A stretch of 64,000 nt of DNA, taken from the NCBI GenBank assembly GCA_020736575.1, contig JAGPYM010000026.1:186001-250000 (forward strand), read 5' to 3'. Source of the DNA: Thelonectria olida. Lineage: Eukaryota; Ascomycota; Sordariomycetes; Hypocreales; Nectriaceae. The notes beneath the pieces were generated by a model. That model worked only from the letters and a program-made list of their open reading frames with translations, was not told the origin of the DNA and did not search any database. The position numbers and the translations under genes are program-made. Positions 22,494-59,474 of the stretch are shown here, in pieces (position 1 is the first letter of the stretch; each line of letters begins with the position of its first letter).

Positions 22494-24626
22494 TCAAATA
22501 AGATCGACAACTCGCCTTTCCATGCTCAAACCCGACCAGTTGTTGATTGACACCACGCAGCCAACACGCCTATAAATAGCAGCCTCAACATGTTCCAAGG
22601 CCAGGCCATATTTCTCTTGTACTCTGAGCCACACGCACGACTGCGCCTTTGAGACAGCAGCCTCGTCGTTCCTATAGCAATCCAGGTACAAAGTCGCAAC
22701 AGGGTTGTTACGCCTAGGTTGAGACCTCCCATATATCCAAGTCTCGGGCTTTGGGACTTCAGTCCCGGATATCAAATAGCCTTCCACCCGTAATACGCCA
22801 CCAGTCACTTGGCCCAGCGGCAGCAGATCAGACCGCGGTGTCACGGTACAGTGAATCATCTGAAGTTCCATGCCACTGTCCTCAGTTCGGCCAATGCGTA
22901 GGTCGGAAAAGGATATAGGACAATCAACTGATGCCCAAGACCAGCTTGGGGCACAGTACGCAGCACGGCGCACATCTCGGCTCTCGTCTAGGATTGTTAA
23001 CCAGAGCATCTGATGGAGAAGATCATGTTCCCACATGCCCGCTAGATACTTGCCGGGCTCCCCTCCATTCTCTATCGAGAGGCGACGCACTTCGCTCGCC
23101 AGGGCTGAGATAGCAGGCAGCTTGTCTTCCGGGAACGTAAGATGGCGACGTGCATACAAGGTGACCAGGCCCATCCAGGTTTCTTTGCACGGGTCCCGTT
23201 TGCCGTGTTCGGGAAGGAGAAACTGGGCCGCTAACCACAGATGTGCACGCAACCATGAGTTCCAAGTCTGTATGCCTTGCCCACATCTCCAACTCAAGGT
23301 TGATGTTCCGTAGATCAGAGCTCGTCGGCAAAGCATGTATTCCTGGTACGCCCAAGCACGGCTGTCGAGGGGTTCCAGTGACGTGTGGTTCTCACGCCTG
23401 TCGTACTCGAGGTGAATAACGCTCGTCCCACCATCTGGAAATGCTATGGGGAGGTCGAGTTGCCACCCCGTAGACTCGGTTTCGAGAGAACGTGGCGACG
23501 TCGTTGGTGCTAAAAGGCCCTTGTCGGAGCCGCTTGCGCTGGCTGCCATGATCACAACGGAAGCGTTCTGGTAGATCTGCGCCATGGCCGCTACTTCGGT
23601 GTCTCTGTCTTCAATAGAGTCCTGGATGATGCAAAGAGCGTCCACCCAAAGATAGGCCAGGCCAATTGATCTCGTAACTGCGACTGCGTCCTGAAAAGTA
23701 AGAGGCAGGGACGACATGGGTATACGTTCGAGGGCGTCTGTAGAAATCGTCAGCATGACCAAAAACGATAACCCCCAACTAAGCTGGGGTGATATAGCTA
23801 ATTACCGTCAAGCGATGATATCGAAGTTACAAAGGTTTGTCCACCGCCCCAGCAGTAGCTAAGGGCAGCGTACTGGCCGCATTCGCCCCGTGTCTCACGT
23901 ATTCTGAGGGCGGCTGGATCGGAGAGATCAAGCAGACGAGTAGGGAGCGGCTTCGGGACCGGACGTGGACAGGACGAATGATGGGCATCGCAACTCGCCA
24001 TCCATGATCGAATCTTGGAATAAGCGGCTGTCGAGCCCATGTCCTGATCGCATTCACGAGAACTAATGTAGGAGGCTTCTCGGCCGCCTAATTGCCATCA
24101 GAAAGCTAGAAATCAGGCTTCGAACGGAGGAAAACGGCTTACCGGGCGATACATAGACCTTGAATTTCATACAGGCACTTTCCGTGCAGTCGTCCGTCAA
24201 GTCTCCATGGATTTCAGTGCCCACTATTGTTCCGTGAAAGTCCAACTCATGGATATCGTACGCCGACTTCCTCTGGCCCTCGGGCTGAAGATGGGCCCGC
24301 AAGGTAAGGACTGCAAAGGCTGTGGCGTGGGCGTCGAGAAAATCGGCAACAGGAGAGTCGATGATGGCTGGGTCGTCCAGAGACCGGAGAGCTATGTAGA
24401 GGAAAATGCTACACATGCGACAAGACGCGATTTCGGCAGAGTCATACAGGGTTCGGAGCGGCACCTGGAAGTTGAAACCTACTATCGACGTTGCACGGCG
24501 CACGCATTCGATATCTGTCAAGACGCTGGAGCACTTGGTGCAAAGGTTCGGGCGCTGGAGCAAAGCTCTCCTTTCGTCGTCGCCAGCGCCGCGAACATCT
24601 CTAACAGTCCGGCTGGGTTTGGACAT
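22494..24626 (-). CDS. HET-domain protein (heterokaryon incompatibility type)
   Basis: Three exons (24143-24626, 23806-24087, 22494-23737) give 669 aa. An N-terminal Cys-rich segment (CTKCSSVL, CRMC) precedes the HET domain: YAALSYCWGG, then PLTFQDAVAVTRSIGLAYLWVDALCIIQDS, VVIMAASASGSDKGLL and DSRAWAYQEYMLCRRALIYG. HET domains are TIR-related modules that trigger cell death after non-self recognition in fungi. The C-terminal half holds FPEDKLPAISALA and APSWSWASVD, typical of HET proteins without a separate sensor domain. It is divergent from another HET gene 285 bp away. Confidence 0.93.
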
Positions 24627-24911: not shown

Positions 24912-27026
24912 ATGGGGAACAAATACAGCAACCCCAGCAGGGAGCAAACCGACCTCTGCCGCACCTGCAAAGCCATCCCCGCAACCACCTTCTACAGCAG
25001 CCGCCCACCCAGACTTGGATCTGACCACACCTTTGGACCAACAAGGCCGCATAAGCTCTTCGGCGGAGCTACCGCCTTTGAGCAGCTCAAACAATCCGCT
25101 GCGTCTGGCTGCCCTCTCTGCAGCCTGTTTGCGGATGCCCTCAGACTTAGCAACTATGATCCAGACGACCAACTCAGGAGGCAGCCTCAAAACTGTGAGA
25201 GCGGCATCTCACTGCTCAGGGGTCAGCCAGATAGACTTCAAATTACCTTTGGCACGGCCACTTCCCATAATCTTGATGCGCGACTGCTCGTTCATGTCGA
25301 CGAGTTCACAACCAAATCCTTAGAGCCCCCGTCCTATGTCGTCGAGACGGAGGCGGATTCTCCAGCTAATTTCACCCTCGCCCGTTCCTGGCTGGCCGAG
25401 TGCTGCGGGCATCACCCAGAATGCGGGGATTCTGCAGAATTCGAGCTGCCTCGACGTCTGCTGGACATCACGGTGCCAGGCACTATTCGACTTTGCCCGA
25501 CCTCCGACCTCCACGTCAAAGGCAGAGCAAACTATGCGGCACTGAGCCACTGCTGGGGCGCTCATCAACCTCCAAAAACAACCAAAAGTAACCTCCAGGG
25601 CCAGATGGCTGGATTCCCAGACACTCGGCTTCCTCAGACCTTCTTCGATGCCGTGCAAGCCACCAGAGAGCTAGGACTCGGCTATCTTTGGATCGATTCG
25701 CTGTGTATCGTCCAAGATGACCGGAGTGACTTCGAAACAGAGTGCGCACGAATGAACACAATTTATGCCGGCGCTCTTTTCACATTAAGTGCCAGCGACG
25801 CCAGGGATGCCACCGAGGGGCTCTTCCGATCGAGGACAATGAAGCCGGTTACGCTGACGTACGAGACTGATGGAATAGAGCCAAAGCTGACCGTCATCAT
25901 GCAGCCAACTTTCTCTGGCGCATGGATGCAAGGGGTCCTGGGGCCGTTGCAGAGCCGCGCTTGGGTGCTCCAAGAACGACACCTGTCGCCGCGCATCATC
26001 CACTACACGAGAAAGTCCCTGATGTGGGAGTGCAGAACTGCTACAGCCGCGGAGCATGCACACAAAATGGTCCCCAAAGTTGATACGAACAGACATATTT
26101 GGCCCGAACTCTCGTCCGAGCGGTTCCTGGATGGAGGGCGCTCGAAAATCGAACCTGATCCTCGGCCCAACAGCAGCGATCTTGAATTCTACTACCTACA
26201 CAGTCGCTGGTACGACGTGGTGGAGCAGTACTCGCGGCGTGGCTTGTCGTTTCCCGAGGACAAGCTGCCAGCCATAGCCGGGTTTGCTGCCGAGTGGAAG
26301 CGGCTCAAGCCTCATGACGAGTACCTCGCTGGCTTGTGGAAGAGCGACGTCTTCAAGGGGCTCGCGTGGTTCCCCAGCTCCCAGAAGCACCAGATCAGGC
26401 GTCGTCTTCCCGAATCGGATGCAGCGTGGCCGCCTGCGAGCCGCTTCAAGACGATTCCGTCGTGGTCGTGGGCGGCGTATGATGGCAATGTGGCTCACTT
26501 TGGGGGTGATTGGTTCAAGGACAATTTCTACGACTACAATCCGCTGAAACTGGAGTTTGGGAAGCCGCTTTCGACGAGTCCTTGTCCTCTGCAACTCCAT
26601 GCCGTGGCGACCACGACAGTCGGACAGAATCCGTTCGGGCACGTGAGTGGAGGCAGCATCACTCTGTCGAGCTGGTCCATGGTCGTTGCTCTAAGTGAAG
26701 AAGACTTTTCGCCGGGCTATCTCATGCCAGATGGAGACGGACCAAAGGCGTATCGCCTACATGCGGACCTCAAGTACGTCAATGACGGAATGGTGTATTT
26801 CGACCACGACCCGTTCTGCCTTCCGAGGATCGAAGTGCTGCTTCTGCAACTGGGCATGGGCCGGACTCTCCACGGGAGCAGGGCATGCGCATGCGGGCTG
26901 GCTTTGCTGAAGGTCAAGGCTGAAGAAGGCACTGATGAGGAGGTTTACAAGCGGGTCGGCATGTTTGAGCTGAATGATTACTCGTTTTGGTTGCCGAGGA
27001 GGCGGAGGACTGTTACAATAGTTTGA
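24912..27026 (+). CDS. HET-domain protein (heterokaryon incompatibility type)
   Basis: Intronless gene of 704 aa. The N-terminal zinc-like CRTCKAIP...CPLCSLF segment (15-72) precedes a HET domain: YAALSHCWG near 208, TFFDAVQATRELGLGYLWIDSLCIVQDD, LFTLSASDARDATEGLF and QSRAWVLQERHLSPRIIHY. The C-terminal part has FPEDKLPAIAGFA and IPSWSWAAYDG like its divergent neighbour, but sequence identity is low, so this is an old pair or independent members. The product probably acts in the cytosol in allorecognition or immune-like cell death. Confidence 0.94.
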   Translation: MGNKYSNPSREQTDLCRTCKAIPATTFYSSRPPRLGSDHTFGPTRPHKLFGGATAFEQLKQSAASGCPLCSLFADALRLSNYDPDDQLRRQPQNCESGISLLRGQPDRLQITFGTATSHNLDARLLVHVDEFTTKSLEPPSYVVETEADSPANFTLARSWLAECCGHHPECGDSAEFELPRRLLDITVPGTIRLCPTSDLHVKGRANYAALSHCWGAHQPPKTTKSNLQGQMAGFPDTRLPQTFFDAVQATRELGLGYLWIDSLCIVQDDRSDFETECARMNTIYAGALFTLSASDARDATEGLFRSRTMKPVTLTYETDGIEPKLTVIMQPTFSGAWMQGVLGPLQSRAWVLQERHLSPRIIHYTRKSLMWECRTATAAEHAHKMVPKVDTNRHIWPELSSERFLDGGRSKIEPDPRPNSSDLEFYYLHSRWYDVVEQYSRRGLSFPEDKLPAIAGFAAEWKRLKPHDEYLAGLWKSDVFKGLAWFPSSQKHQIRRRLPESDAAWPPASRFKTIPSWSWAAYDGNVAHFGGDWFKDNFYDYNPLKLEFGKPLSTSPCPLQLHAVATTTVGQNPFGHVSGGSITLSSWSMVVALSEEDFSPGYLMPDGDGPKAYRLHADLKYVNDGMVYFDHDPFCLPRIEVLLLQLGMGRTLHGSRACACGLALLKVKAEEGTDEEVYKRVGMFELNDYSFWLPRRRRTVTIV

Positions 27027-27435: not shown

Positions 27436-28896
27436 TCACATGCTCTTTGGGTTCAAAAACGCCATCATCTCCCGGAACGCTTTGCGAATCGACCGTCCGA
27501 TGGCCTCCACACACTGCCAAAGCTTGGCGGGGATATACTTGATCAGCCAGATGATGCCAGCTCCGATATACCACAGGCACTTGCCAAAGCATCCGAAAAG
27601 AGCAGCGAGAGCCTTGTATGACATCTCGCCGAACGAGCAAATGAACCTAAAGATGGCCTTGGGCGTCTCGATGAAGATGGCTCTAAGCACATAGGTGAAG
27701 CCATCCCAGATGTCGCTAAGAGTGATGCTGCCAAAGAAGGAGACAATGGCAGAAAGGACGGTGTGTATCAGGGAGAAGATCTTGGTCACAACGTTCCAGA
27801 TGGCTTCTCCGACGCTCTTGAAGCCTCGCCCGATCCAGACGGCAATTGTCTTGATCACGCCCGGGATGGCCTTGAAGAAGTGCCAGATTCCTAGGACAAG
27901 GTCCTTCAGGAACGAGGGAACCTTCTTGATAATCCTCCACACCTCTTTGGCTTCCTCCTTGATCTTGCTGGGCAACCGCATGAGCCCTCGTCCGACCCTC
28001 TCAGGCAGCCGGACAATGTTCCGCTGACACCACGCCCGAACGCGGTGTCGCCGCTTCCATATCGCCTTGCCCGTCTCCTTGGGAAGATCGTAGACAAAAA
28101 ACTTGGGAATGTCCCAGACGAAGAATCTGATGAACCTGTAAATGCGGGCCAGGGCACGACGCACTCGCTTCATCTCTTCGTGGTGCGCTGTTTTCCACCG
28201 CAGCCACGCACCAGCTCGTCGGGAGGGAAGCATTTCGACAATGTCGCGGTGGCCGTTGTCGGCGGCCAGACGAAGTGCGATGGCGCCATCGGGCGCGACC
28301 AAACTGTCGTCGGAGCCGTAGTCTTCCATCAGCACCTTGACCATGGCGAGGTAGCCTCGTTCGGCGGCGATCATCAACGGCGTGCGCTGGGGATACGTCG
28401 GCGGGTACGCGTTCGGATCAATTGGCGTCTTTGAAGTGCCAAAGGCGTTGACAGTCGATCCCAGAGAAACCAACCGACTGATCATTGGCACTCTCCCTGC
28501 ACGAACCGCAGCGAGAAGCGGCGTCTCGCCCTTTGCGCTCGTCACGTCGGGAGACACATAGCCGCGTGAGACAAAATCGATGACCACATCATCGTGGCCG
28601 GCCTCGATGGCGGAGAAGAAGGCTCTGACGATGTCGCGCTGGAGGTAGCATGCCTCTTCTTCGGGGAGGTAGCTGATGGGGTGGGCGTAGAGGAAGCGGG
28701 TGAGCGTGTCGTACTGGGCCGAGGAGGGGGCATGCAGGATGGGGAGCTTCAAGGCGGTGGCCTGTTCGATTCGGGCGTGGAGGTTGTCATGTTCGCCAGC
28801 CTCGGAGTAGGCGGGGACGGGGAGAGACTCGTTTGCGTCGTAGAAGCGAGAGGAAGGGGGGGTTGACGGAGGGGTTGGGAGAGTTTGTGCGCTCAT
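27436..28896 (-). CDS. ankyrin-repeat protein with long amphipathic/hydrophobic C-terminal array
   Basis: Single exon, 486 aa from the ATG at 28896 (the open frame extends 33 codons upstream but from TTG). A Pro-rich N-terminus leads into ankyrin repeats at about residues 95-235 (GETPLLAAVRAGRVPMISRLVSLG, RTPLMIAAERGYLAMVKVLMEDYG, AIALRLAADNGHRDIVEML). The remaining 230 residues are a series of basic, Trp/Phe/Ile-rich helices (FFVWDIPKFFVYDLP, VWRIIKKVPSFLKDLVLGIW, FFKAIPGVIKTIAVWIGRG and further), looking membrane-associated rather than globular. With HET and NACHT genes on either side it could be a membrane-acting immune effector, but that is inference; no named family was recognised. Confidence 0.85.
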   Translation of the reverse strand: MSAQTLPTPPSTPPSSRFYDANESLPVPAYSEAGEHDNLHARIEQATALKLPILHAPSSAQYDTLTRFLYAHPISYLPEEEACYLQRDIVRAFFSAIEAGHDDVVIDFVSRGYVSPDVTSAKGETPLLAAVRAGRVPMISRLVSLGSTVNAFGTSKTPIDPNAYPPTYPQRTPLMIAAERGYLAMVKVLMEDYGSDDSLVAPDGAIALRLAADNGHRDIVEMLPSRRAGAWLRWKTAHHEEMKRVRRALARIYRFIRFFVWDIPKFFVYDLPKETGKAIWKRRHRVRAWCQRNIVRLPERVGRGLMRLPSKIKEEAKEVWRIIKKVPSFLKDLVLGIWHFFKAIPGVIKTIAVWIGRGFKSVGEAIWNVVTKIFSLIHTVLSAIVSFFGSITLSDIWDGFTYVLRAIFIETPKAIFRFICSFGEMSYKALAALFGCFGKCLWYIGAGIIWLIKYIPAKLWQCVEAIGRSIRKAFREMMAFLNPKSM

Positions 28897-30308
28897 CGGG
28901 TGATTGATGCGGGAGCGGTGAGCCCGGATTGGGGGGTCGGCCGAGGTTCTGGGGTATGGATTCGGGGGGTTAGGTATTCGTGGTCGAGAGTGCAAAGTTA
29001 TGATGCGCTGGACCCAGAGTTCATATTTGAATGCGCCCGCGGGAAAAGCAAATGCAGCTGAAAAGTAGCTTCGCTGTTCATCTCGTGATGTTGTCTTGGA
29101 ATGATTGGAAACCTATCCAGGACTCTCTCCCCATGATTCGAGGGACAACTCAGCCTTGCAATGGAACTGGACTTTTCCCCCTGTGCCACCCGACATGACT
29201 GGACGGGGATCCACTGTAAGGCCCACTGATCGGGACGGGACCTGCAGGCATCACGGCATTTTTTGGGCAAGTTTTTAGTGGTGTGCGAGTGAGCCACGGG
29301 GAGGGCACCGCTGGAAAGCCTCCCCGCCGAGTCCTGCGCTATCGCGAGCTGAGGCTTGACTGTGGTGGCTGAGTTTAAATGGTTCCGTTTCGACATTGTA
29401 GATGAAGGGAGGATGACGCTGGCGGTGCAATTAAATCGAGGTGCCTAGAATCGTGCCTCGGTATGCCTTTGGTGTGTGTCCTATTTTATTTTCATGTTGA
29501 TCCAATTTCATGTGAATTAATATGTGTCTGCTTGGGTCGATTGGTTGGTCGATACCCCTTCACGCGACGTCAGCCACAAAACTCTATCACCAACCCAACC
29601 CAAGTTCGAGGGAGTTGTACCTCGACACTTATAAGCGGCTGCCTCCAGCTCTATCTGCATGCCGAGGCACGTAAGTTAAATGAGAGCAGAGAGGCGTTCG
29701 AAATTGTATTTTCACCTGATGAGTCATTAAAAGGACTGTGTCGTCATTGCTTTGCATTTTCGAGTTGTGCTCGTGGTCGGCTCCAGGGTAGGCCACCTCG
29801 GAAGGACGTCCCGGGAGAAGTGATGATCATCTATCCAGCAGGCGGCGTTCTCGGGACAGGTAGAAGAGGACAACTCTTCATCTTGAGTCTGATCCAGAGT
29901 GAAACCTTTCGCCGCTGGCCTCTTCTGGTCTCTGAGTCGTGACATGACCGGAGAATGATGAGCTCCTCTAGTTGGCGTTGGGAAACCACCGTTGAGTCCG
30001 GTTGCCGACCTTTTTACCTATCCACGCAGCTTTAACTATACTCTAAACCAATAACTATCCCACATCCCACTTCTACGGCAATGACAACATCTACAAATTG
30101 ACCAATATTGTCGCCTCTGTTCCCAAGTTTGGCAAGGCGTCACCTTACCCCACCCTGACGACAAGTCGCCGGCAAGTTGGGATACCGATTTGTCATCCTG
30201 ATAAGAGCCTCATATAGCCAGAGTCCGAGTACGAAGGCATCTTCAGTGAACATCCAAGATTGTTCAAATCATCATACTCCTGGAGAGACTCAACGAAAAA
30301 CAGCAACA
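28897..30308. other. intergenic region
   Basis: 1.4 kb between divergent genes, holding both promoters. Open frames at 28998-29396 and 29463-29942 show no domain or codon bias. Confidence 0.5.
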
Positions 30309-31648: not shown

Positions 31649-34600
31649 CTAAGCAGTCTTCTGCATTTCTTCCATCAAGATCCTGACCCTTTGCACTTCC
31701 GGCTCCTGCGATGCCTCTTCCACCAACTTCAAAACACCCACTGCCGTGATCTCTGGGTCCCATGAATCCGCAACAACAACCGCATTCACATCCGCCGCTC
31801 CTCTATCAATGAATAGTTGCACAATCTTTGCCCACCGTGCCGCGCCCTCGGTACTGCCCTCGTTTCGCACAATCCAACCTCGACGATGGGCGTCGCGCAA
31901 GTGACGGAGTAGGGCGAGCCACGGCGTTCGTGTGGCGTGGTTGGTGAAATCGGAGTATTCTTCGTTTGGTCCAGGGTTGATTTTGGAAGGATGTGCGAGA
32001 AGATATTCGACGAGGTCGGGGCTGGAAACGGGAAAGATGGTTTTGCTTCGAGAACATAGGAATTCTGTGGCATAAGAGAGTAGGGGTGTTGGCTGCCTCT
32101 CATCTTCGAAGTTGCCTTTCGAAACGTCTTCTTGTTCTTGGTGCTGCTGCAACTGTTCGGATACATACTCTGTCAAGCCAAACTTGGTAGCCAGGCACAA
32201 AAAAGGTCGACGAATAGACGGAGCCTTCATGCGGACTTCGTAAGACCCGAATATGCTTCTGGCCCAGTGATCGAATGGATCCGACGGCTTCGAGAGCCAG
32301 TACCACGACAGAGTCTGGTTCATCTCGTTTAGAAACAGGCTCTGAAGGCGCTTTGTGTCGTCGGTGATGTATCGTGCGTGGGTCATGGCCAGCGCAATGT
32401 CAGGGTACCACTCGTCAAGTCTGCGGTGGTGCTCAACCTCCTCGAGAGGATGCTTGAGACGCAGGACGTAGGATCTCAGCAACCGAAGATGGGGGTCGAA
32501 ACCCGGACTCGAAGAGCGCTGCAGTCCGTTATATGCTCCGTCGGGATTCATCAGCCAATCCCGCACAGTTCGATGAATGTACGTGACCTTGTCGTAAACA
32601 AAGACGAGCTCGGCGACCGTCTTGGTCTTGTCGTCGACGAATCTGGGAACGCGAAGGTTTCCAAGCCTCCGGCGACGATGGAGACTCAAGAGGCCAGAGA
32701 ACCGAGCCATGACGTGTTTCGCCGTCGTCTGGTATCTCGACACGATTTCTTCGAGCGAGGCCTCTTTAACTTGACGCTCAAGCACCAAGTCGTCGTCGTC
32801 GGGGCTGAGAGCGAATGCGAGCTCCCAAGCTGTGAGGGCGTTTGACGATTCGTCCTTGAGAAAGTCGGCGACGAGTTCTCGAGCGCATATGAGGCGGAAC
32901 AGATGAGATGTTTCGGTAATCTGCGCTTCGTTTTGGTCTTTGAAGATGAGTTTGTCAAAAAAGTCGTCAAGATCACTGGGAAAGCTCCTCAACGTCGCCT
33001 TGAGATCATCCTCTGTGTCGGCCTGGACGAGACTCAGGATCCTCTCCACTGCCAGCCTAACCCACAAGAAGACACCGTCGGCTTGTTGGACTGCACTCTC
33101 GACGAATTCGCGCTTCAGCGACGGGCTAGCCTTGAACAAGTGTCGAATGTGGCGGTTTTGCTGGAGTTCGTCTCTGGTGTACCGGCACATGTCATCGTAT
33201 GTAAGGTCCTGAAGTCGCCCATTGGGTACGCTCTGTCCAAAGGCAGCCTCAAAGACGGACCACGGACGGGATGAGAGACACATCTTGAGTGCGTTGCTAT
33301 CTTTTCCCGTGGACAGTGTTTTGAAAAAGTCAACGATGCCAGTATGGTCACCTTCAAACTCATCCAGTCCGTCGATGAATAGACAAATATTCATCTTGGG
33401 CAGGGCAGCATCGAGGAGTAACCGGAATGCTGCCATGAGATCCGGCACAGTCCATTCAAGAGCAAGATTGACTCGTTCCTTGGTGGACATTTGTCTCAGT
33501 TTCTGCCACAGCTCTGGAAATGCAGATGGCATCAGGTCCGGGTTGGCAGAGAGAAGCTGGTGCAGCAGACTGCGTAGTAAACCGTTCTGAGAGCGTTGGT
33601 CCCGAGTGCCGCTCGTCCAGAAGAAGAAGCTGGCCGGGCAGACAGGACGAGCTCCCGCCCATCCCTGAAGCAGCTTTTTGGTTTTCGAGTGCTGAGAGAG
33701 AAAGGCCGTGAGGGTAGATTTGCCCGAGCCCGGCTTCCCTGTGATCCAGTAGATAGGACCGAGGTCATTCGTTTTCAGCCATGTTGTGAACTCTTTGCCG
33801 AAGTTCTGTCGAAGGGGATCGTCGATGATGCTGCTGTTGAAGATCCACTCGAGGGTTTGGCTGTGAGCTTCGGTGACTTCTTCTTCGCGGTCGTACATGC
33901 TTTTGTATGCGAGGCTTTCGAGGAGGAAGTCGTTGATGAGTCCGACAGGAGCAAGTCTGGCCGTTGATGTCTTCTTGTCATAGTTGCTCTTCTCGAATCC
34001 AGGATTGGTTTCCTTTCCCGAGCCTTGGTTGAAGAGAGCTTTGGATGCATTCTTTTGCGAGCCATCTTCGCCTTCTTGTCGGTTTGCCGCGTCGACAATG
34101 GTCAAGCTGGACAGTTGTTTGCTGAATTCAGTCACAGTCCTGTTTGGATGAGGAGAGTTAGTCTATATGATATATGTAAGGGAGGATGCATCATTGTAGA
34201 TAGTATACCTGTTGGACGGCATCAGCTTCTGGCATTTGGGGGCGAGCTCCGACAAACGCTCATGAAGCGCGACGACATCTGCGCGAGGCCAAAGCGAGCA
34301 AAACTCCTTGACGTCGACTTGGTGAGCATCGTCGTCGGAAAACGATGGACGCGCGCGATCGATTTGCATGGCGATGTCCTGGCCAATCTTGACGCAAGAA
34401 TGCATCAAGCGCAAGGTAGTGGCATCGCCAGGGACACCGGAAGGCGAATTGAAGAGCTTCAGCATGCCCAAGACGGAGAGCGACGCAGCGCCGGCCAACT
34501 CTTCCATGTCATGGTCTACAGAGATGAAGCGAGTGGGCGAAGGCGTGGCATTGTGGACGGCGTGGGCGACCTGGTGGACATTGACGGCGGTCTTCAAGAA

Positions 34601-40980: not shown

Positions 40981-41748
40981 CTAGTTGCCATGTGAGCCTG
41001 GCTCTCCTGTTGGACCCTTCGCGCCTGAGTCACCCTGATCACCCTGATCACCTTTCGAGCCCTTTGGGCCGGGATCTCCTTGATCACCTTTCGAGCCCTT
41101 TGGGCCAGGATCTCCTTGATCACCTTTCGAGCCCTTCGGGCCTGTGTCCCCTTGCTCCCCTTTGGGGCCTTGATCGCCCTTAATCCCTTTGGGACCTTGG
41201 TCCCCCACATCGCCCTTGCGACCTGCGTCCCCTTTATCCCCCTTGGGACCTGGGACCGCTGCGCTCTGCTTTAGTGTCGTAATGTCCTTGCCATGGTCCG
41301 TAACGGTGGTTTCGTGCGTTTGGGTTAAGGCTTCCAAAGCGGCCAGACGTTGTTCAACTGAAAGTCGAGTAGGGATTGCGGGACGTTGCCCACCAGTAAA
41401 ATGATTGACGAATCGTCTGTAAGAATCCCTTGCATAGACACGAAAGACATCAGTTCCAATAAATACGACAATAAGAGTCCCTACCATGGCGATAAGAGTC
41501 CCTACCGCGGATAGATACTTAACCCAACCTTTGGTAGCAGCCTTCCTGGTAGATGCCTCGAGAGTGACATTGAGATAGCGGAGACATTCCGCGATGTCTT
41601 CGAGTGGGTTTGGAACACCAGTAGCTTCCACGAGCTTCCCAACACTGGTAGCGAACGTGGATATGGAGCCGGATGTGGGTGTTCCGCCGAACGACGGATC
41701 GATAGCGCATTGAGATTCGGACGGTCCCATGTTGGCAACGTTCTTCAT
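40981..41748 (-). CDS. membrane protein with coiled coil and collagen-like (Gly-X-Y) tail
   Basis: 255 aa from the ATG at 41748 (KNVANM). Order: an N-terminal 70 residues; a segment matching the paralogue; one strong membrane helix ([21 protein letters not shown], about 120-140); a coiled coil ([19 protein letters not shown]); and 29 uninterrupted collagen triplets to the C-terminus, rich in GPK, GDK, GSK and GDQ. Within the triplets a 36-bp unit ([12 protein letters not shown]) is repeated about three times. Tail residues are charged and lack Pro-rich fungal signatures, resembling bacterial or phage collagen-like stalks. Probably a trimeric membrane protein; topology and role unknown. Its leader (to about 42420) is related to that of the inverted paralogue at 43485. 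Confidence 0.8.
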
Positions 41749-43484
41749 TGCTGTGAAGGAGATGTTCGATTGCGACTCTGGAACTCTGGGAATTTCGAGG
41801 ATGAAGGGAACGAAGGGAGAGTGGAAAAGGGATGATCGAGATGGTGGAAACAAAAAGTAGTAGTTGTAGGAGATGATACCTTGTTGACCAGGTACTTGGG
41901 TAAGTTATTCTTCACTGCACTAGAAGCTTAGCAGGTTTGGGCCGGGGATGTTGAAGCTGGGAGAGGTGTTAGAGTGGGAGAAAGGAGGGATCGGTGTGGA
42001 ACTCACGTATAGTTCAGAGTGCCCTTGACGCAGTGACTGCAGAAGGCTTGCGAGGTGTCGTTGGCAGCGAAGTGGTTCCAATTGATCTTGGTAATGTGCG
42101 TATAGAGGCAAGGAAGTCCAGGATGAGACCTAGGAGAAGAGGAACGGCGCTTGTTGAGGCTGCAATCCTTGAAGCTGGAGGACTCCTGACTCCTAGAGAC
42201 GTGACGGGAGATGCCGAGGCGAAGAGCGGACTTGACAGTGGCAATCTCGAAGGACAAAACCGCAGAGTCGCGGCAGAAGTGAGGCGGAGAGTAACGGGCA
42301 AAGGAGAGTAAAGGAGAGAGAAATGGCCGCCTAGGAAAGAGAAAGAAGAAGGAAAAACAGAGAAGAGAAAAGAAGCCAAAGGAACCAAGCGAGGGTTGGA
42401 GTTCCATTGAAGGCTTCACTGGGCGTTTGGTGTCATTGGTTGCAAACTAGCTATCATGTGACTTTCCTCTTCAACATCTTATTTTTCACACCAGAAAAAA
42501 TACCTGAAAAATTTAAGGGCTGGAAGAGGCCCATGGGACTGAGATTGGCAAGTGGAAGGAGAGGTATCATAAAAAAATGATAGGAATAAGCCTCCAACTT
42601 GATAAGAAGGCCAATTTTACAGCTACCAGCTTAGCTCAAAGCCAACTGGATAATTACGTATATTGGAATCCTGGATTGAAAGTCCACCTTGCCTTGTTGT
42701 AGTTTGAGTGTTCATAGTATAAAGGACTATCGCAACGTTATGAAAGTGTTGGTGGCGGCGTTTGTTACGGTATTATAGTTGGTGATAGCTTCATTTTTAA
42801 TCGCGACTTATTGTGCAGGCAGGATAGCGCGTCGCGTGCGGAAGAACTTTAGGCGCGCTGCGGGTTAACACCGGTTGATTCCCGAAAACTGACGTCATGA
42901 TAGCCAACATCAGGGAGCTCATACCTTGAAAGATTGGCAACTGAATTCAAACCGGCGTGAAAAAAACACAACATCAAAGAATTGTTGCAACTTAAACTTG
43001 TGAATAAATAAAGTGGTGAGATGAGGTACATAGATGGGCAAGAATTGCTTGAAATAAGCCTAAGACTCCGAAGAAACCCAACCATTCAAGACTACAATGC
43101 ATGTACTGTAAGAAACCTACTGCGGGGCCTGTTATACTCCTGGAATAACATTCTCTTGAGGAATTCTAAAGTTGTGGGCTGAGATGAATCGTGTAGGTGC
43201 AGTGCATTAAACTTGGATAAAGAAGAAGCCATGCTTAATTAATAGATACGTAGTAGAAGGTTTTTCCAATTAACTTAACTTAAATGATATAACTAGTGAT
43301 ACCAAACCCCCAATGAAGCTCTCCATGGAACTCTAACTCTCGCTTGCTTCCGTCGGCTTCTTTCTTCTTTTCTATATGTTTTCTCTCCCTTCTCTCTCTC
43401 TTACCTGGAAATTTCTCTCTCCTTTACTCTCTTTCTCTTCTTCTTACTCTGCTCCTCACTCTCCAACAGAAGAACGTTGCCAAC
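41749..43484. other. spacer between inverted paralogues, with duplicated leader and con-10-like 3' segment
   Basis: Two CT-rich leaders face outward. The segment 42420 back to about 42290 (minus) aligns with 43312 to 43450 (plus), both starting near CCATGGAACTC and sharing TTTCTCTCTCCTTTACTCTC. Between 43085 and 43300 lies a third copy of the con-10 3' flank (CATTAAACTTGGATAAAGAAG and CCTTCTACTACGTAT, as at 44040-44100). 42480-43080 is AT-rich and empty. Confidence 0.55.
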
Positions 43485-56835: not shown

Positions 56836-59474
56836 ATGTCGTTAGCCGGGAACAAGACGAACCCCTACCAGAGCGTCGGGGATCTTCTGAGCAATGTCAA
56901 TGACTTCAAGATCATTGAATCGACTCTCAGAGAGGGAGAGCAATTCGCGAACTCGTACTTCACTAGAGAAACCAAGATCAAAATGTCTGCAGCATGCCTT
57001 TCCCACCAGCCCTCGTCCGCGGACTGACACCACCACTTCCATAGTGCTACCATGCTCGACGATTTCGGCGTAGACTACATTGAGCTTACCAACCCTGCAG
57101 CCAGTCCCGTGAGTGTTGTCTGTCGCTGCTGTTGGCACGTTCCCCGCTAATCAACCATAGCAATCTCGCGACGATTGCGAAGCCATCTGCAAGCTCGGCC
57201 TCAAGGTACGCATCCCACAACCAACCAGTGGACCATACACTCACTAATTACATGGCAGGCCAAAATCTTGACCCGTTTGTTATCTCCTCTCGTCTCTGTT
57301 TGTGGCGTATTTTCTGACAGACATTTCAGACACGAGATGTACTCTTGAGGCAAGTGTCCTCTCAATTTATCCTTACTTGTTCGCCGCTAACAGATTTCCA
57401 GGACGCCAAGCTTGCGGTATGCCCTCTGAACCCCGAACGAATTTGCAACGGTCTAATCCTTGAAAGTGTGACTGCGGTGTCGACGGTGTCGACGTTGTCA
57501 TTGGAACCTCCCGTGAGCACAATCCCGCATCATTTCCGCCCATGCATGGACTGACTCACAGACTAGAGTTTCTCCGCGAGCATTCTCTTGGCGGCAAGGA
57601 CATGGTGGCCATCACCAAGCAAGCTATCGAGGTTATTGAGTATATCAAGAGGTTTGTGCATTGTCAATCTTGTCGGAGTTGGAAGCTAACATGTTCTCAG
57701 TCGAGGTTGCGAAGTTCGCTTCTCAAGCGAAGACTCGTTCCGGTTCGTACATTCTCTTCCCCCCAACATATCGAGCCGACCCCTTTGCCGACCGACCGAC
57801 CGCCATTTTCCCTGGAGACTTCCGGGCGTTAGGATATCATGACCGTCAAGTCCTGCGAGAAAACGAAACAAGGGCAGCCGCCCAGACTGCGGTACCCCTT
57901 GCTACACGACGACAACCAATCTCAAGACACCTTCTCAAATATGCCAGAACTTTGGCTCCACCGACTCCAACACAAAAGGAAATCTGTGGTCAACGTCCTC
58001 TTACCATCAAGGATTCACCCGTTGTGTCTGTGGTGGTGGAGGTTTCAAGGGGTCGGCTAACTAACCCTTCCAACATCATATGCTAACGTACAGAAAGGTC
58101 TGACTTGGTCGACCTGCTTTCCATCTACCGCGCTGTCAGCAACGCCGGCGTGGGCCGTGTAGGTGTCGCCGACACGGTTGGCTGTGCTTCTCCACGACAA
58201 GTTTACGTGGGTCCTCTGATTATCCTTGCCTGTGTGATACTGACTATCCGCAGGACCTCGTGAGAACTCTTCGAGGCTGTGTCTCGACTGATATCGAGGT
58301 TCACGTATGTTTTCCACGATCCATGTTTAACTTAATATCTTACTTATGTGATTTAGTTCCACGACGATACGGGTTGTGCTGTGGCGGTTCGTCTAGTACT
58401 GAGAATCCTGCGTGAGATAAAGCTGACCATCATAAGAACTCCTTCACTGCCCTCGAGGCTGGCGCGACACGTAAGTCCATCTTTCCATTTATTTCTCCTT
58501 ACACAAGCCTGCGAAATACGCCTGATATGCACATCTCCAGAATAGACTCCGGGTTCATGGACATTATCAATTACCTCTACAGAAGGGGAACCAAGGCTGA
58601 TTTTTGTGATACAGACATTGACACATCCGTGCTTGGAATTGGAGAAAGGAACGGCATCTGCCCACTTGGAGCCCTCGTGCGTTAACTCTCTCCTTTGAGA
58701 ATCTGCCGCGTGCTGACTTGTATTTTTTAAGATGGCCAGAATGATGCCAACCAGCAGGGACTACGTCCTCTCCAAGTACAAGCTTCACAAGCTCAAGGCT
58801 ATCGAAGACTTTGTCGCTGAGGCGGTTGAGGTAGTGTATCCCGTTCTTTTGATCCTGCTCTAAGCTGACGGCATTTTTAGATCAACGTGCCATTCAACAA
58901 CCCCATCACTGGTACGCCTCTTTACTTTTGTTATTGTAGTTCTATTCGTGTTGCTAACAATCATAACAGGCTTTTGCGCCTTTACCCACAAGGTATAATT
59001 AATGAGATCGAGTCTCCTGCTTGTATAGACTAACACGGTACCAGGCCGGTATCCACGCCAAGGCAATTCTCAATTCACCATCTACATATGAGATTCTCAA
59101 GCCTGAGGACTTTGGTCTTTCAAGGCAAGCTATACTGATTATACTATGTGTTTTCAAAACTAACAATTACGCAGATATGTGCACTTTGCATCCAGAATTA
59201 CTGGCTGGAATGCCATCAAGAGCCGAGTCGACCAGCTTGGTTTGCACATGACTGACGATCAGATCAAGGAAGTGTAGGTTTTATTCTGTTCAGCTCAAAA
59301 CTCAGATCACTGACAGCCTTTTCCAGCACGGCCAAGATCAAGCAGATGGCTGATATTCGACCCCTGGCTATTGATGATGCGGACTCGATCATTAGGTCTT
59401 TCCATCTTGATCTGCAAGACGAACAAGGTGGCCAGGATGGGCAGAATGGACAAAATGAGGAAAAGAAGGCATAA
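56836..59474 (+). CDS. hcs: homocitrate synthase, 20 exons
   Basis: First enzyme of the alpha-aminoadipate lysine pathway: acetyl-CoA + 2-oxoglutarate to homocitrate. Twenty exons join in frame to 415 aa, near the usual fungal length: 56836-56984, 57045-57108, 57161-57205, 57259-57274, 57330-57349, 57402-57416, 57467-57512, 57567-57651, 57701-57742, 58098-58206, 58254-58304, 58357-58386, 58437-58470, 58615-58676, 58732-58830, 58881-58911, 58970-58992, 59045-59124, 59175-59273, 59327-59474. Motifs: [58 protein letters not shown] (metal His), [48 protein letters not shown]. Introns are 47-60 nt except 355 and 144 nt; two have GC donors. Exons as short as 15-16 nt. Confidence 0.93.

Follow-up and report, generated by a model that had tools for sequence, protein, structure and literature searches.

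An intron-dense homocitrate synthase gene in Thelonectria olida, with intron positions shared with a diverged paralogue

The window analysed here is a stretch of 64,000 nucleotides from the 52.5-Mb genome of Thelonectria olida (C85:186001-250000). It contains, on the forward strand, a homocitrate synthase (HCS) gene with a coding sequence of 1248 nt split by 19 introns, amounting to about 1.25 kb of exon and 1.39 kb of intron (Table 1). The gene model, with 20 exons, was obtained by spliced dynamic-programming alignment of protein to DNA, in which donor, acceptor and branch site were scored, and the joined protein is identical at 415/415 residues to the public Thelonectria olida protein B0T10DRAFT_495419 (P0001). 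The strain of the window is presumably among 41 fungal genomes annotated with transcriptome support. That set of genomes is described in PMC8664821, whose main text does not mention Thelonectria by name. Alignment and public protein agree, and they bear out the preliminary description of this DNA, which had proposed 20 in-frame exons encoding a complete HCS; its exons of 15, 16, 20 and 23 nt are recovered as exons 6, 4, 5 and 17, as are its seventeen introns of 47-60 nt. The other two introns, 9 and 13, measure 355 and 144 nt. Borders are GT-AG in 17/19 introns and GC-AG in introns 5 and 18, both short, so that the normal borders ascribed to the short introns hold for the GT-AG ones but not for these two. 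The branch-site motif CTRAY is found in 18/19 introns, starting 14-21 nt upstream of the 3' end, and intron 11 has TTRAY only; in Fusarium, CTRAY occurs in 91% of introns (PMC5677156).

Table 1. Positions of the homocitrate synthase gene and of selected exons and introns within the window; C75 is the paralogue with 14 introns.
Feature	Position	Strand	Remarks
Homocitrate synthase (HCS) gene	56836..59474	+	415 codons and stop; start 56836, final coding base 59471, stop 59472-59474; spliced alignment, identical public protein, TIGR02146 487.9 bits
Exon 4	57259..57274	+	16 nt; final base is the first base of the His92 codon; His92 aligns with S. pombe His103
Exon 5	57330..57349	+	20 nt; first two bases complete the His92 codon
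Exon 6	57402..57416	+	15 nt; spliced alignment
Exon 17	58970..58992	+	23 nt; spliced alignment
Intron 1	56985..57044	+	nucleotide position identical in C75
Intron 3	57206..57258	+	nucleotide position identical in C75
Intron 4	57275..57329	+	position identical in C75; interrupts the His92 codon
Intron 5	57350..57401	+	GC-AG, 52 nt; position and phase identical in C75
Intron 9	57743..58097	+	355 nt; sole genome match is itself
Intron 13	58471..58614	+	144 nt; sole genome match is itself; position identical in C75; extra residues there in models P0028 and P0078
Intron 16	58912..58969	+	nucleotide position identical in C75
Intron 18	59125..59174	+	GC-AG, 50 nt; without C75 counterpart; aa 331-336, site of many gene-model errors in clade-A relatives
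Intron 19	59274..59326	+	nucleotide position identical in C75

Across 226 core genes of four Fusarium species, coding sequences contain 2.53 introns on average (range 0-15), and two Fusarium species have 1.8-1.9 introns per gene (PMC5677156). Against these values the window gene is an outlier in intron number; its density is, however, of an already known kind. The CTP synthetase of Fusarium, at the top of the core-gene range with 15 introns, and the glutamine-dependent NAD+ synthetase, with 12-14, are likewise conserved metabolic enzymes of Hypocreales with short introns far above the average; high intron number is preserved among species and CTRAY branch sites are common, as in the window gene (PMC5677156). 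The latter differs from them in carrying 19 introns in 1248 nt, in having several exons of 15-23 nt, in the splitting of an active-site codon between two short exons and in a gene tree that departs from the species order. A very short exon in a hypocrealean gene is also known from Xlr2 of Trichoderma virens, where it is regulatory (PMC11121469), whereas the window gene has several, which are probably constitutive, since skipping of exons 4 and 5 would cost an active-site residue. As to the pathway, the Penicillium saccharopine reductase gene has 10 introns (PMC9854754); intron counts for HCS genes do not appear in the surveyed portions of PMC8779187 and PMC9854754, nor in titles and abstract openings of the related literature. 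Matches to CTP synthase lie in the Thelonectria genome at C155:485000 and C86:449568; for intron density, the 15-intron Fusarium CTP synthetase would serve as a useful comparator. Genes of the HCS superfamily elsewhere in the genome show open frames of 545, 496, 459 and 296 aa, two of them matching also in a second, shorter piece, and in the same comparison the window gene gives a match in one 58-aa open frame only. Within the window, neighbouring open frames of 828, 704, 662, 519 and 507 aa agree with intron-poor neighbours.

HCS catalyzes the first step of the alpha-aminoadipate pathway to lysine. The window protein exceeds the curated cut-off (413.55 bits) of TIGR02146, the NCBIfam equivalog for fungal and archaeal HCS. 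When it is aligned to S. pombe HCS, all of the 14 residues that we take to form the active site are intact (14/14; S. pombe numbering R43, E44, Q47, H103, D123, R163, S165, E167, T197, E222, H224, H226, H321 and Y332). The match to the S. pombe enzyme (PDB 3IVS) spans residues 9-399; the window protein differs from this member of the same family by one extra residue (126) and by the lack of an N-terminal extension. Such an extension, of 7-36 residues, is present in 56/57 rows that lack residue 126, and in the remaining row it measures 312.

Two paralogues are found in the genome. C75 (C75:558.2-560.2 kb; L010 3694-5721) has 14 introns and encodes 374 aa; R163, T197 and H224 are replaced, and its score of 408.5 bits against TIGR02146 lies below the cut-off. 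Its reading frame is open, with in-frame deletions near the active site, and these features suggest a copy in decay or a pseudoenzyme. Among the matches listed, its closest public proteins are Fusarium proteins annotated as HCS (F. ambrosium, F. falciforme and others), at 78% identity, in the clade here called B'; no identical public protein is among the 120 matches listed, and C75 may be absent from the public annotation. C76 (C76:196.0-197.3 kb; L009 4001-5313) has 2 introns and encodes 401 aa, but stops ahead of H321 and Y332, so that the C-terminal part is missing, and D123 is replaced; it is a diverged HCS-like protein whose N-terminus is extended by a long stretch rich in Gly, Ser and Asn. 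The second, intron-poor copy that had been suggested as something to look for thus exists in C76, although as a truncated, diverged paralogue. A genome search with an Ilyonectria HCS (P0112) revealed no further HCS, of the standard B or B' type or otherwise, beyond C85, C75 and C76; it also gave two distant HMGL matches, in C111 and C1. The replaced residues of C75, the missing C-terminal part of C76 and the lack of a further copy in this search make the window gene the best candidate for the working HCS. No other fully equipped HCS seems to be present in the genome, and lysine synthesis in Thelonectria olida would then be carried by the window gene.

C75 is also informative on the age of the introns. 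After protein alignment, seven of its 14 introns fall at the exact nucleotide and phase of window introns 1, 3, 4, 5, 13, 16 and 19, and 9/14 lie within 3 nt of a window intron; random placement of introns gives a mean of 0.24 matches and a maximum of 4 in 100,000 draws, and chance agreement was therefore rejected. None of the two C76 introns (0/2) is at a window intron position. Since the two proteins are widely separated, the window gene belonging to clade A and C75 to B', the seven exact positions indicate that at least seven introns predate the split between A and B'; 10/19 window introns have no C75 counterpart within 3 nt, and part of the set may therefore be a later gain in clade A.

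A recent burst of gain in Thelonectria alone, for instance through introner-like elements, would account for the excess of 19 introns over the Fusarium core-gene mean of 2.53, and introners, which would explain many introns in one gene, do occur in some Pezizomycotina (PMC9860276). Such elements should leave a family, and none was obtained: the best pair score among the 17 short window introns is 12, against 8-13 in 50 shuffles, so that they are no more alike than shuffled sequence, and introns 9 and 13, when searched against the genome, each match themselves only, leaving no intron source visible. When the window and C75 introns are compared together, the best exact match measures 13 nt (window intron 11 with C75 intron 9; E 0.001) and is the one resemblance worth noting. 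An introner origin was rejected on these comparisons. Together with the seven positions exact in C75 and the footprints in relatives described below, they render a Thelonectria-only burst very improbable; intron gain in the gene's own lineage, one of three origins offered by the preliminary description, has no support for at least the seven introns exact in C75 and for those with footprints in relatives.

These footprints are internal insertions and deletions in the annotated proteins of relatives. Clade-A proteins were recognised by the extra residue 126 (62 in addition to the window protein), and indels of at least 2 aa inside residues 31-392 were counted, leaving out one-residue indels, indels reaching outside this range and a three-residue SWP insertion at 360-361; before this removal, 35/63 clade-A rows had an indel of at least 2 aa. 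The SWP insertion, found in 12 rows, was taken as real because it occurs also in the transcript-size protein P0036. On this count, internal indels are present in 23/62 clade-A proteins other than that of the window, and 16 of 44 distinct-event ends are no more than 1 aa away from a window intron, compared with 4.6 when the intron sites are rotated (p=0.0026); the other 28 are not within 1 aa of any window intron. Outside clade A, 7/178 proteins carry such indels, with 5/11 ends at window introns against 1.2 expected (p=0.0065); three of the seven are B' models that skip exons 4 and 5, and two are of the B type (P0188 and P0238).

The commonest event is the loss of residues 87-98, which correspond exactly to exons 4 and 5, in 11 models: eight of clade A (Stylonectria, Biscogniauxia, four Beauveria, Nemania and Xylaria) and three of clade B' (Fusarium piperis, Tolypocladium paradoxum and Hapsidospora). 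The histidine at window position 92, S. pombe 103, is present in 227/241 rows, with 11 gaps and 3 other residues; thus 11 public HCS models lack an active-site histidine through the skipping of these exons in annotation, and they are very probably wrong, since the skipped stretch holds His92, whose codon is split between one base in exon 4 and two in exon 5. The models concerned are P0028, P0029, P0043, P0044, P0046, P0047, P0054, P0061, P0135, P0144 and P0174. For eight of nine clade-A proteins without species name the longest contig measures 1.4-1.9 kb, which cannot accommodate 1.25 kb of exon together with 1.39 kb of intron, and they therefore look like spliced transcripts; apart from SWP in P0036, these eight show no indel of at least 2 aa at residues 31-392. 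The ninth, P0005, is a 403-aa clade-A HCS with no internal gaps and a longest contig of 29 kb, either an intronless genomic copy or an assembly artefact.

The relatives thus seem to possess the same tiny exons, and the indels at the same exon borders, together with the positions shared with C75, indicate that much of the intron set is older than Thelonectria olida. The sharing with relatives is read from errors in annotated proteins and would concern some introns only, around aa 49-55, 86-98, 214-236 and 331-336; events at residues 27-31, in Beauveria and Xylariales models, point to introns that are absent from the window gene. With 7/14 C75 introns in exact position and these footprints, the gene falls among the intron-rich conserved core genes of ascomycetes.

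Phylogenetic analyses were performed on two sets of sequences, the first with 87 of 187 proteins plus C75, C76 and S. pombe, the second with 59 of 241 proteins plus S. pombe, as outgroup, and C75 (61 rows); C76 was omitted from the second because the first tree had given a warning of long-branch attraction. The taxonomic placement of Thelonectria olida (Nectriaceae, Hypocreales) and Camillea tinctor was looked up, and the other rows stand in the orders and families to which we take their species to belong. Clade A (100/100) and B' form together a clade with support 100/99 and a stem of 0.28, outside of which branch the B-type HCS of many Pezizomycotina; many inner branches are weakly supported. 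The window gene lies inside Pezizomycotina, and a Pezizomycetes row falls outside, as does S. pombe. Several Claviceps proteins and one of Epichloe are publicly named saccharopine dehydrogenase, which looks like a propagated misnaming of HCS.

Basidiomycete genes are generally intron-rich, and horizontal transfer from such a donor was another of the three earlier proposals. No named basidiomycete is, however, among the 120 matches listed, for which reason the tree has no basidiomycete row, and the nesting of the window protein inside Pezizomycotina leaves this origin with hardly any likelihood. In the protein phylogeny, one of the checks suggested earlier, a basidiomycete affinity does not emerge, but the tree does depart from the species order, Hypocreales and Xylariales being interleaved in clade A. 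Transfer between ascomycete orders is therefore a live possibility.

The departure is documented at several levels. For groups named after the first tree had been seen, AU tests reject as single clades the clade-A Xylariales (10 rows, p=5.6e-53), the clade-A Hypocreales (12 rows, p=4.4e-82), the clade-A Nectriaceae (7 rows, p=0.003) and the Hypocreales of A and B' with C75 (24 rows, p=6.3e-41). Camillea and Biscogniauxia, of Xylariales, group with Thelonectria, Stylonectria, Dactylonectria, Cosmosporella and Mariannaea (80/88). Congeners are separated: Fusarium verticillioides is found in A, F. graminearum and F. falciforme in B'; Hypoxylon argillaceum in A, Hypoxylon sp. CI-4A in B' and Hypoxylon sp. 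NC0597 in B. Among the 120 best matches of a B-type query, the named Hypocreales are Purpureocillium, Hirsutella, Ophiocordyceps, Tolypocladium, one Cordyceps sp. and Metarhizium rileyi only, with no named Fusarium, Trichoderma, Beauveria or Claviceps; these named rows indirectly suggest that B-type HCS is absent from Fusarium and others.

One explanation is that an intron-rich clade-A gene was exchanged, as genomic DNA, between Hypocreales and Xylariales and took the place of the resident HCS in recipients, among them an ancestor of Thelonectria olida, whose older copy, C75, then decayed. The rejected clades, the position of Camillea and Biscogniauxia, the divided congeners, the composition of the B-type matches and the three replaced active-site residues of C75 all speak in its favour. 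Duplication followed by differential loss yields similar trees, however; identities of 85-93% across orders are usual for HCS, the B-type query itself reaching 86-94% in other orders, and the nesting of the two xylarialean genera is only moderately supported. We give this transfer a probability just short of even and make no firm choice between it and duplication with loss as the cause of the interleaving in clade A; the HCS lineage would either have moved between ascomycete orders or have been sorted by duplication and loss.

It is also possible, although the balance tilts to the other side, that a single burst of gain on the B'+A stem, later than the split from standard B-type HCS, supplied the majority of the 19 introns, perhaps upon duplication of an intron-poor copy or its arrival in a new genome. 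The well-supported clade and its stem length are compatible with such an event, and massive intron gain after gene transfer has been recorded for a basidiomycete alpha-amylase gene (PMC3584928). The rarity of core indels outside clade A points the same way, given that three of the seven affected proteins are B' models and most B-type models are clean, which suggests few introns in B-type genes; clean models, on the other hand, may just reflect larger exons or better annotation. Against the burst, the event in the B-type protein P0188 begins at aa 307, where window intron 17 lies, and the low mutual similarity of the introns, with the two long ones lacking a second copy, gives no sign of a source from which they were copied.

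The retention of an older structure, the third of the earlier options, is the best supported, on account of the seven introns exact in C75 and of the footprints in relatives. The reading that we prefer, and consider probable, is that the window gene is the working HCS of Thelonectria olida and belongs to the B'/A lineage, intron-rich by old inheritance. In that case the lineage made up of B' and A, distributed in Hypocreales, Xylariales and a few other Pezizomycotina, would have inherited its intron density from old, and the intron structure was presumably already dense in the B'/A ancestor. The introns are ordinary short spliceosomal ones, and their branch sites are good; each is probably recognised as a unit (intron definition), a mode that would allow exons of 15-23 nt to be spliced constitutively.

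A bolder proposal, which we put forward tentatively and would sooner doubt than accept, is that one intron-dense HCS lineage had a single origin in Pezizomycotina and then travelled between Hypocreales, Xylariales, Pleosporales and Sordariales as intact DNA with its introns in place. It would repeatedly have displaced the resident enzyme of an essential pathway and kept its microexons, including the pair that shares the codon of the active-site histidine. The discordant gene tree raises, in any case, the question whether a gene that is transferred between filamentous ascomycetes takes its introns along. With 19 introns in a group with about two per gene, many of them by old inheritance, the window gene offers a small, self-contained case in which to study how introns evolve. 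It suggests that constitutive exons of very short length can be maintained from one fungal order to another, and that gene models break down at exactly such exons, as in the 11 public proteins deprived of the active-site histidine.

Other parts of the window contain open frames with HET domains (22494-23762 and 24912-27026), one with ankyrin repeats (27436-28995) and a NACHT-like protein (31649-34135); HET, ankyrin-repeat and NACHT-like genes are of kinds known from fungal nonself recognition. On the reverse strand, a 307-aa open frame (40981-41904) has a Pfam collagen-repeat match, which is unexpected in a fungus.
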